A DNA stretch of 64,000 bases from Streptococcus sp. VT 162 (lineage in GTDB: Bacteria; Bacillota; Bacilli; Lactobacillales; Streptococcaceae): contig CP007628.2 in the NCBI GenBank assembly GCA_000688775.2, positions 1,798,001 to 1,862,000 of the forward strand, given 5' to 3'. Shown in pieces: positions 18,456-63,985 of the stretch. The first letter of the stretch is position 1; each line of letters begins with the position of its first letter. Below the pieces are notes generated by a model. The model was not told the DNA's origin. It saw only the letters and a list, made by a program, of their open reading frames with translations, and searched no databases. The translations under genes were made by a program, and so were the position numbers.

Positions 18456-18659
18456 GCTAAAAACATCCACTGGATGTTCCAACTCTTTCTAGTTTCTAGG
18501 AGTTGGGGTGATACAGTCTCCCAGACATACCAGTTCTCTCTTATTTAAAGGAACTGGGGTAAAAACGTTCCCCGGACGTTCCTGCGTTTCTAATTTCTGG
18601 CGCAGGGCTAAAAACTTTCTAATTTCTGGCGCAGGGCTAAAAACATCCACTGGATGTTT
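18456..18659. repeat. Modular array of short hairpins
   Basis: At least six small palindromes in 200 bp: AACATCCA/TGGATGTT (18462-18478 and, extended, 18641-18659), CAACTC/GAGTTG (18480-18505), CCAGTTC/GAACTGG (18530-18557), an AACG..CGTT stem (18564-18580) and CTGCG/CGCAG (18582-18605). A 29-bp unit is exactly duplicated in tandem (18587-18615, 18616-18644). A GCTAAAAACATCCACTGGAT block occurs at both ends. No coding frame is apparent. Confidence 0.7.
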
Positions 18660-60881: not shown

Positions 60882-60993
60882 ACTTTGATAGAGTCGGATT
60901 TCGTGGTTAGATTCTAAAATTACTTTTTCATTTAAGGTAACAAGGAATTGAGCAAAAACTAGTAACAGATAGTCAAAATAAAAAAGACTGAAA

Positions 60994-61049
60994 CTGTACT
61001 GCACCCCAAAAGTTAGACAGAAAAATCTAACTTTTGGGGTGCAGTACAG
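60994..61049. mobile_element. Palindromic pair of IS3-type ends (solo remnant)
   Basis: Two perfect 24-bp arms (CTGTACTGCACCCCAAAAGTTAGA and its complement) flank only eight bases. TGTACTGCACCCCAAAAG resembles the terminal inverted repeats of IS150-group IS3 elements of streptococci. No transposase is left and no clear target duplication is seen, so it is either a collapsed IS or a MITE-like scar. As RNA it is a strong hairpin. Confidence 0.6.
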
Positions 61050-61081
61050 AGATTATCTTTTTCATTCTATTTTCTCCTATA

Positions 61082-61418: not shown

Positions 61419-61447
61419 TTCGCAGGATTTCAAAATTTTGATATAAT
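61419..61447 (+). promoter_or_regulatory. Probable promoter of the repeat-ORF and methyltransferase
   Basis: TATAAT (61442-61447) with TTCGCA 17 bases upstream (61419-61424). The -10 box is perfect; the -35 box matches four of six. It lies 33 bp before the ATG at 61480. Confidence 0.5.
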
Positions 61448-61479
61448 AGAAGTAACAAAAATAAAGGAAATTAAGTATT

Positions 61480-61701
61480 ATGAACGCAATCACAGCTCAC
61501 AGCTCACAGCTCACAGCTCACAGCTCACACTCACAGCTCACAGCTCACAGCTCACAGCTCACAGCTCACGCTGATTATGTAATCGGACGTGTTTTTTGTC
61601 AAGCATTAAAACAGGCATTTTCACATTTTTGTGAGAAGGCTTTTTATGTTGAGTTTTCTGAGTTATCTTTAGAGAGAAATGGAGAGCTACAATATGCCTA
61701 A
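61480..61701 (+). CDS. Short ORF running through the heptanucleotide repeat
   Basis: 73 codons: MNAI, then a low-complexity TAHSSQL stretch encoded by the repeat, then about 43 residues with normal composition (ADYVIGRVFCQALKQAF). AAAGGA precedes the ATG. It ends with TAA at 61699-61701, overlapping the methyltransferase start (ATGCCTAA). In the other two registers the frame stops at once: TGA 61572-61574 or TAA 61580-61582. It may be a translational coupling leader. Confidence 0.5.
   Translation: MNAITAHSSQLTAHSSHSQLTAHSSQLTAHADYVIGRVFCQALKQAFSHFCEKAFYVEFSELSLERNGELQYA
61492..61567 (+). repeat. Tandem heptanucleotide repeat (ACAGCTC)
   Basis: Ten perfect ACAGCTC units, five on each side of one 6-base variant (ACACTC at 61527-61532), 76 bp in all. 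Seven bases is not a multiple of three, so gain or loss of a unit shifts the reading frame. Such tracts upstream of methyltransferase genes are the hallmark of slipped-strand phase variation. Confidence 0.9.
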
Positions 61702-63985
61702 CCATTTCTCAAACGAAGTTGATGGACAACTCAAGTTTTATCAAGATTATCTACCTCTAGTTGATAAAACTTTGAAAATAGATGATATTTTAACGGATTA
61801 TACAGATGGTATTGTAAATGGAAATCTGATCGAATTTAAAGTTGTTATAAATGATATTAACACTGTTCTATTCCAAGCCATCAAATATCTATCTGCTCGG
61901 AGAATCAAAGGAAAAGAAATCCCCAAAAACATTCTGCTTGTGTCGCTAACGAATAAAAAAATCTATGTTTTTGATAGTCAGGACTATTTAACACATATCG
62001 AAAAAGTATATTTTGGTGGTGCAAGTGTAAAAACCTCTGGTTTTTCTGCTGGTACTCCTCTTGAAGTTTTAGAATACGGTCAAAATCAACTACACGAAAG
62101 TCGTCTTATTAATTTACTACGTTCAAAGCAATATACAAAAATTAACATTGATGAAAACTGTATTGTTGGTTGGGCAGAACGTTTTTATCGTGAAAACAAA
62201 GGAGCTAAAAAGTCTGATTTTATTGGTGATCATACTGGTAAAGTTAAAATTATTGGTGAAATTCGGAAACCTGAGAAACTAAAAGAGTTTATCAATCCTT
62301 ATATCGGTGAAACTAATGTTCAATTTCAATATTTGATGGATAAACTCAATGATACTTTGCAAAAGAAAAATTTAGGAGCTTTCTACACTCCTGAACTTTA
62401 TGTTCAAAAGTCATTGGAGCTAGTCCGACAAGCTATTAAACGTGTTCCAGAAGGAAATGATTATATTATTTTGGATAGATGTGCCGGAACTGGAAACCTT
62501 GAGAAATTGATGAGCGACGAGGAATTAAGTCACTGTGTTCTTTCAACTATAGAATATTATGAATATAAAGTTCTGCTGGAATTGCTTGGAGATAAAGTCC
62601 GTCATATCATTCCACCAACTGAAAAAGAAGATACTTTTAATATGGGGTTAGTTCGAGGAGCAGATGCTCTTAGCGAGGAATATATCAATAATGAAATTAT
62701 TCAACACTATATCAACGATCCAAAAGTAACAATTATTTTGTATGAAAATCCACCCTACGCAGATACACGCAGTATAGAGCATCAAAAAGCAAAAAAGACT
62801 TCATCATCATCACAATGGAAACAAAGTTATTTAATGAAACAGATGAAACAAGAAGTCAAGGGAATGGGTGTAAATGAGATGGGAAATATCTTTATTTGGA
62901 GTGGTTTCAAATATTATCTTCGTCAGCCTACTGACAGTTACATTATTTATAGCCCAATCAAATATTGGAAAGAAATTCATCTCATCGATAAAAAGTTTGA
63001 AAGAGGATTTGCTTTTAATCGAAAACATTTTCACACTAAAATTGATGCGTTAGTTTCTTGTATTCTTTGGTCAAATGTAGATGAAGAATTAAATAATATT
63101 ACTCTTGAAGCATTCAATATAGTCAATAACGAAATCTTACAAGAAGAAGATTTAACCATCAATCGTATTTATAAGAAATATAGTAATGTGTATTACGACA
63201 AACGGAAATTTAGTGACGATAAATTATCTGATTTTGTATTGGGGTTAAATGGAGCAAAATTAATAGGCACGAATAAAATTACTTCTCAGACAATTATAAA
63301 TAACAATCTAATTGGCTATTTGCGAGCTTCTGGAGTGAATTTTGACAATCCTGACTTGGCTTCTTCTTTACTAGTTGCTAGTCTATATAATGGTGCAGGG
63401 TATTTCCCATTAAGAAAAGACAATTTCCTAGAAAAGCTCCCAATGTTTGCCGCCAGTCGCTACATTACTTATAATCGTCACTGGACACAGCGTGCTAATA
63501 TTATGAAATCTGCCGATGGCGTTGAACGTTTCAATAAAGCTGTATCAAGTAACAAGATTGAACAAGACTTATTGAAAATTCTTCTATTCACAACACTTGA
63601 AACGCAAAATCACATGAGAAGTTTATATGGTTCTGATGGACGATTCTACCGAAATGAGTTGTCATTGGATAACACTAATGGAGATACGCTAGCAACAGTT
63701 AACTTAGCAAAATTGAAACAAGGTTCTAAAGAGACTGCTTTATTTGAACAATGGGAAAAAGTCCTAACAGAAGCTAAGAAGACGGAAAATTATGATTCTA
63801 AATTAACGTATTCAGTTTATCAGATTATTGATGAGCTTAACACATCTGAAAAAGATGAAAATGATAAAACAATCTATAACTATCCCGAATTAAACGGACA
63901 CTTGAATACATTGAAAACAATGGTAAAAGAATATTATAATTCTGAAATTGTGCCATTCCTATTTGAGTATGAATTTTTGAAATAA
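61694..63985 (+). CDS. N6-adenine DNA methyltransferase with nuclease-like N-terminus (restriction-modification)
   Basis: 763 residues from 61694, chosen for GGAGAG seven bases before it; an in-frame ATG at 61679 follows a stop at 61670. Residues 34-49 show TDG..EFK, a PD-(D/E)xK-like nuclease pattern. The methyltransferase has motif I DRCAGTGN near residue 261 and NPPY at 352-355. The last third may be a target-recognition region. AT-richer than the core; another gene starts three bases after its stop. Confidence 0.8.
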   Translation: MPNHFSNEVDGQLKFYQDYLPLVDKTLKIDDILTDYTDGIVNGNLIEFKVVINDINTVLFQAIKYLSARRIKGKEIPKNILLVSLTNKKIYVFDSQDYLTHIEKVYFGGASVKTSGFSAGTPLEVLEYGQNQLHESRLINLLRSKQYTKINIDENCIVGWAERFYRENKGAKKSDFIGDHTGKVKIIGEIRKPEKLKEFINPYIGETNVQFQYLMDKLNDTLQKKNLGAFYTPELYVQKSLELVRQAIKRVPEGNDYIILDRCAGTGNLEKLMSDEELSHCVLSTIEYYEYKVLLELLGDKVRHIIPPTEKEDTFNMGLVRGADALSEEYINNEIIQHYINDPKVTIILYENPPYADTRSIEHQKAKKTSSSSQWKQSYLMKQMKQEVKGMGVNEMGNIFIWSGFKYYLRQPTDSYIIYSPIKYWKEIHLIDKKFERGFAFNRKHFHTKIDALVSCILWSNVDEELNNITLEAFNIVNNEILQEEDLTINRIYKKYSNVYYDKRKFSDDKLSDFVLGLNGAKLIGTNKITSQTIINNNLIGYLRASGVNFDNPDLASSLLVASLYNGAGYFPLRKDNFLEKLPMFAASRYITYNRHWTQRANIMKSADGVERFNKAVSSNKIEQDLLKILLFTTLETQNHMRSLYGSDGRFYRNELSLDNTNGDTLATVNLAKLKQGSKETALFEQWEKVLTEAKKTENYDSKLTYSVYQIIDELNTSEKDENDKTIYNYPELNGHLNTLKTMVKEYYNSEIVPFLFEYEFLK

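Follow-up and report, generated by a model that had tools for sequence, protein, structure and literature searches.

The window, a 64,000 nucleotide stretch of Streptococcus sp. VT 162 DNA (contig CP007628.2), carries on its + strand, where the promoter-like site, stops, hairpins and enzyme gene described below also are, a leader ORF of 73 codons (61480–61701) that is open in its present register only. Within it is a slippage tract (61492–61567) consisting of five ACAGCTC units, one 6-bp ACACTC and five more ACAGCTC units; other copies of the arrangement have tracts of other lengths and units. The score that TRF gives the tract, 153, with 11.6 copies and 97% matches, shows that it is not due to chance, and the description in the initial annotation of ten 7-bp units split by one 6-bp unit, in an ORF from 61480, was exact to the base on recomputation. 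Upstream is a promoter-like site (61419–61447; TTCGCA, 17 nt, TATAAT, with TG before the TATAAT; 10 matches out of 12), and in most of the copies inspected the leader likewise has a TATAAT-like box before it. The leader ATG is preceded by AAAGGAAA and, to judge from its start, SD and open frame, the leader is presumably translated.

What does a change in unit number do to its readout? Relative to the ATG at 61480, a TGA (61572–61574) is in frame +2 and a TAA (61580–61582) in frame +1, so gain of one unit leads to a stop at 61572 and loss of one unit to a stop at 61580. The leader stop, TAA 61699–61701, is in frame 0 and lies over the enzyme start at 61694. As the enzyme's frame holds TAA 61580 and TAG 61670, the tract is not within the enzyme's own reading frame, and since that TAG and both candidate enzyme starts, 61679 and 61694, are all in frame +1, synthesis of a leader-enzyme fusion protein is ruled out in any register. 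That the ORF stays open to 61701 in the present register alone and ends over 61694, that the n-1 and n+1 stops are at 61580 and 61572, respectively, and that the TAG in the methyltransferase frame precludes fusion had all been proposed at the outset, and all hold with the frames recomputed. Ribosomal frameshifting at TTTTTTG, judged by eye, was also rejected as off-register ribosomes would already have stopped before it.

Two other repeats in the window are a pair of perfect 29-bp tandem copies at 18587–18644 (TRF) and, upstream of the leader at 60994–61049, an inverted repeat whose 24-bp arms, TACTGCACCCCAAAAGTTAGA and its complement, match perfectly around an 8-nt loop. The latter looks like a small mobile element or an insertion-sequence remnant, and its Rfam matches are to miRNAs only and sub-threshold.

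The gene behind the leader (61694–63985) is predicted to encode a 763-aa single-chain type IIG/IIL-like restriction-modification enzyme, with methyltransferase motifs and an N-terminal D-x8-EFK. Its start at 61694 is favoured over that at 61679 because query residue 1 is where the matches of the relatives L011–L017 and L019 begin; that of L018 begins at query residue 14. Motifs were the basis of the earlier label, DNA methyltransferase, and no family model has come to its aid, NCBIfam and PADLOC yielding no family at E 0.01, Pfam just two sub-cutoff matches, both to unrelated families, and a sequence search of the PDB no match. For the predicted structure (mean pLDDT 76.8, pTM 0.59) the best PDB structural match is the type IIL restriction-modification enzyme MmeI (E 3.3e-7) and the next is the CamA adenine methyltransferase, the TM-scores being low (0.2–0.3). 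D38, E47-F48-K49 and NPPY are invariant over 17 relatives. A type IIG/IIL enzyme, with methyltransferase and nuclease in one chain, is likely though not proven. In genome G000 no partner gene adjoins it; the neighbouring ORF is on the opposite strand and, by reading, resembles tsaD.

Certain relatives of the enzyme gene have surroundings of their own. A Canibacter record (L010, 5856–6003) has a 77% relative with internal stops, and keeps a hairpin resembling T2, described below; there is no leader or tract there. In gut Clostridia MAGs a strongly folded element of 141–156 nt, with a closing stem of 10–13 bp, is upstream of the relatives (L012 5750–5890, L016 5733–5887, L019 5733–5888), and by eye a terminator-like hairpin is between it and the gene. 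It may be an unknown structured RNA.

Hairpins between the tract and the enzyme

Downstream of the tract the leader ORF crosses two hairpins with T runs. T1, detected by folding, is at 61567–61591 followed by T6 (to 61597), and holds both off-frame stops; T2, at 61614–61641 with a T run at 61641–61645, is terminator-like. The off-register stops are inside T1 and before T2, and the on-register stop is beyond T2. In a 29-row alignment, with duplicates collapsed and L079 excluded because its T2 is lost, 96.6% of the T2 alignment cells are paired and four pairs have compensatory (double) changes. For the two-helix structure the double-change cells number 11, versus 2.1 for shuffles, none of 500 of which has as many, and the covariation score of both helices together was matched by two of 500, though neither the number of pairs with a double change (54 of 500 shuffles) nor that of pair types (146 of 500) is clearly above shuffles. 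By a strict in-silico test for intrinsic terminators, 46 of 47 leaders have T2 as one between their tract and the gene, the sole miss being that of G280 (L079), versus 0.48 matches per kb in controls (128 matches in 269 kb, 217 ORFs). In L093 the sequence at the T2 position is diverged, and yet a hairpin with a T run is there. That T2 is an intrinsic terminator is, for a feature seen through its sequence, well supported. T1 is weaker, with no compensatory changes in the alignment and alternative stems at its position in L090, L092 and L094; it passes a relaxed terminator test in 42 of 47 copies, and is probably also an intrinsic terminator.

Could the hairpins instead be by-products of the codons for a functional leader peptide, whether stalling or regulatory? 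Most copies do have a similar peptide core, YVIGRVFCQALKQAFSHFCE, as would be expected if the peptide itself counted. However, the hairpin is on average weaker once the codons are exchanged for synonyms: each of 30 distinct tails forms a better T2 than its synonymous recodings do in the mean, 25 of the 30 significantly so at the 5% level (this set omits duplicates, L079 and any tail in which a stop occurs within the first 54 nt). The T2 of the window, which has a mismatch, is not significant alone, 63 of 500 recodings folding as well. In addition, L090, L092, L093 and L094 alter the peptide and retain hairpins, and the peptide past T2 varies between gene families. We find a functional peptide scarcely credible.

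At E 0.5 an Rfam search gave no known RNA family over the leader, all of its eight sub-threshold matches being at 60974–61072, and identification of the leader with such a family was dropped. The gap between T1 and T2 (GTCAAGCnCTAAAACAG, 61598–61613) is strongly conserved; its A run could base-pair with T2's T run, which may account for the conservation only in part.

Closer to the gene, folding gives a third structure, H3 (61674–61710), whose arms, 61674–61682 and 61702–61710, are around the SD GGAGAG and the enzyme start codon. Other gene families have different sequences there and their SD is likewise paired. Over 47 copies in 24 start classes the mean unpaired value of the SD is 0.25, versus 0.46 for 133 control genes (p 2e-6), and it is again 0.25 after collapse to 13 families (45 copies, L093 and L142 having too little room and being omitted), with some families close to the control level (MPKSIE 0.43, MLVRKT 0.41, SQAF 0.36). 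The start codons are no more paired than those of the 133 control genes. The leader stop overlaps the enzyme start or is within 11 nt of it in 46 of 47 copies. This greater pairing of the SDs relative to control genes lends support to translational coupling.

Coupling through the leader was the switch envisaged in the initial annotation. The separate ORF, the overlap in 46 of 47 copies and the paired SDs all bear it out in part; it was incomplete in that the candidate terminators T1 and T2, and H3, were overlooked. Might coupling nevertheless be the whole story, with no termination at T1 or T2 and a leader ribosome whose sole role is to open H3 and reinitiate on the enzyme? The proximity of leader stop to enzyme start fits well with this, as does the variation between gene families of the sequences that pair with the SD. 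Coupling alone would have no need for T2, and so it counts against pure coupling that T2 is kept with compensatory changes, with a T run and with its near-constant passing of the strict test, and that even L093, diverged at that place, retains hairpin and T run. We consider pure coupling unlikely. As the leader crosses one well-supported and one probable terminator, transcription attenuation is likely to be the main gate.

The cassette in other streptococci

The promoter, leader start, tract, T1 and T2 together make up a portable cassette. Among 284 Streptococcus genomes, one per species, a DNA search with a 79-base piece from downstream of the tract, in which at most three candidates were scored per genome (more copies are possible), gave at least 48 places in 42 genomes. 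Examination of 47 of the 48, a second place in G166 being the one left out, yielded 42 true copies in 37 genomes; those dropped were L091, which is decayed with a broken enzyme gene, and the unrelated L095–L098. A covariance model has matches in 58 of the 284 genomes at E 0.01, and of nine further places that it provided five are true (L142–L146), L147 is a second decayed copy and L148–L150 are unrelated. The total is at least 47 copies in 40 genomes, four of them in G055 and two each in G122, G082, G266 and G157; the copies are related and the counts not independent. In an order-wide sample of 395 genomes, the genus included, every covariance-model match below 1e-6 is within Streptococcus, the best outside being at E 3.4e-5. 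Spread on plasmids, phages or viral contigs was considered and set aside, distant blastn giving no cassette match in plasmids and phages, and viral contigs no exact match to one 32-base cassette pattern.

The genes behind the cassette, of which at least one of each long type was scanned with profiles, are diverse. They include an EcoRI-type (PF13651), genes with N6_Mtase (PF02384), several of which are type IIG by their best PADLOC names, type III genes (PF01555, plus PF12564 in one group) and type II genes (PF01555, plus a RAMA match short of its cut-off). Pfam gives no match for two types, MPNHF, which is that of the window, and MTPLA (L063, L083), and these are 36–37% identical to each other; the MLKDNR and MSKIQY genes are short and broken. 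The MVRKDK gene (93.5% identical) is present behind leaders with AGCAC units and behind leaders with AAATC units, an indication that cassette or unit has been exchanged.

The units known are ACAGCTC, ACAGTTC, ACCAGCTC, ACAAGCTC, AGCAC/GCACA and AAATC. Their lengths of 5, 7 or 8 nt are not multiples of three, and they are within the leader ORF. Off-frame stops are at most 12 nt past the tract in tract-bearing copies, and at most 13 in G000. For 31 of the 47 copies the whole tract is present with an ATG no more than 40 nt before it, and of these complete copies 10 are in frame (on), 12 in one off frame and 9 in the other; the other 16 copies were not scored, 10 being cut by contig ends, three having no ATG in view (one of these is beside a run of N) and three no tract left. 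For copies that are related, values near one third each fit free slippage. Counting of repeat units across related genomes, a check suggested at the outset, has now been done, and both lengths and registers differ between close relatives of one site: G000 is on with G007 and G189 off, their upstream flanks being 94–98% identical; G056 is on and G040, 99.6% identical, is off, with tracts of 46 and 144 nt; and length and state differ among G157, G243 and G047. Different lengths can also give the same register, G282 being on as are G150 and G157, and G223 and G009 sharing an off frame.

Slippage by itself could be neutral, the enzyme being expressed from its own promoter or at a constant level, and it is indeed common for an off-register copy to have a long intact enzyme gene. 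Against this, the enzyme start is just 5–65 nt past T2, leaving little room for a promoter, and the tract, off-frame stops, terminator and overlap persist across different genes and units. A neutral repeat is, in our estimation, very improbable.

Locked or decayed copies, those of G280, G154 and G239, constitute natural tests. In G280 the tract has shrunk to one unit, T2 is lost and the leader stop is 33 nt before the enzyme start; by reading, its leader is in the open frame. SD pairing persists there despite the distance of the stop, and so ‘fixed on’ is a reading of that copy. G154, with one odd unit, reads as fixed off.

GCAGA tracts are in 7 of the 284 Streptococcus genomes, and one place was inspected in each. 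G188 (L155) has a GCAGA x8 leader and a 15-bp hairpin in which the ribosome-binding site is also contained. Its leader stop coincides with the start of a gene whose beginning, by eye, resembles that of the type III gene of L093, and this may be another leader lineage that shares the layout. L153 (G172) and L156 (G139) have GCAGA leaders followed by a very strong terminator-like hairpin and genes, and are possibly further attenuator switches.

A proposed switch and its known counterparts

The interpretation that we judge quite probable is that of a portable phase-variation cassette in which register-gated attenuation is combined with coupling for expression of a restriction-modification enzyme. 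Transcription would start near 61454 and ribosomes at 61480. Slipped-strand replication would alter the tract in steps of 7 (elsewhere 5 or 8) bases, and since it changes by such units a ribosome would exit it in one of three frames. In two of them it would meet a stop inside T1 and leave; T2 (and T1, once the ribosome is off) would then fold on the nascent RNA and transcription terminate, while in any RNA escaping termination H3 would keep the enzyme's ribosome-binding site closed. In the remaining frame, the ribosome would cross T1 and T2, holding both open, and end on the enzyme start codon, thereby opening H3 and allowing restart on the enzyme. Transcription attenuation and translational coupling would thus act in series, and in live cells the outcome would be heritable, reversible and random on/off expression of the enzyme, with whatever effect that may have on methylation or phage defence.

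Translational attenuation is a feature of erm genes, where leader translation unlocks a folded ribosome-binding site; there the response is to a ribosome-stalling antibiotic, whereas here repeat register would decide. The type III DNA methyltransferase ModA of Haemophilus influenzae is reportedly switched by repeat slippage internal to its ORF. For the S. suis type III ModS, the available text of PMC6265453 has slippage within the enzyme's own ORF switching the methyltransferase, and the ModA/ModS location of the tract contrasts with the present case where leader-enzyme fusion is impossible. In some S. suis strains, according to the same text, GAGCA(n) is before mod, a linking 119 bp is absent and mod was taken as not phase-variable (PMC6265453); that a leader-type switch operates there is, by analogy, speculation. 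Campylobacter jejuni NCTC11168 has a type IIG enzyme which, from what is available of PMC4889913, is likewise switched by phase variation.

The nearest counterpart is in S. gallolyticus, whose pil1 and pil3 pili undergo phase variation by leader-peptide attenuation (Danne et al. 2014, PMC3894217). As given in the accessible part of that article, a GCAGA tract in the translated pil1 leader sets the register, which places the stop either before, or within or beyond, an intrinsic terminator; read-through switches transcription on, for which chloramphenicol and mutants of the ATG and terminator provided support (PMC3894217). As those results show that a repeat leader plus terminator can switch expression in a streptococcus, the kind of device is already known. 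The similarity lies in a non-triplet repeat in a leader ORF with a terminator downstream, identified here by sequence and in-silico folding. The differences are that pilus genes are behind the pil1 leader and restriction-modification genes behind this one; that the pil1 stem-loop is approximately 130 bp before the pilA start, with a stop/start overlap not found described in that part of the article (PMC3894217); and that, unlike what is available on pil1, there are here two hairpins, a leader stop at the enzyme start, a paired SD, and one cassette for many gene types. The suggestion in the initial annotation of an uncommon layout consequently needs qualification: with at least 47 copies it is not a one-off, and the pil1/pil3 logic, as far as the accessible text goes, is published (PMC3894217). 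In the open-licence PMC literature no paper was found that describes this leader before methyltransferase genes, and a 2025 review of phase variation (PMC11868660) is without leader peptide, gallolyticus, ‘terminat’ or translational coupling. New here, as far as that literature goes, are the shared cassette for restriction-modification genes, the overlap of leader stop and enzyme start, the paired SD and the genus-wide spread.

What would it mean? That the cassette moves between streptococcal restriction-modification genes and makes each enzyme a coin toss, with multi-copy genomes drawing combinations independently in a genus-wide lottery, is a proposition that we hold in even balance. A shared cassette would explain how new enzymes turn phase-variable at once, and searches for repeats inside the enzyme gene, of the type in the available text of PMC6265453, would miss enzymes that are switched from outside. 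If true, multi-copy genomes would have many restriction and methylation patterns, phage defence and epigenetic state would be under one double-lock RNA device, and the pilus attenuation logic of one species would become a wider streptococcal device.
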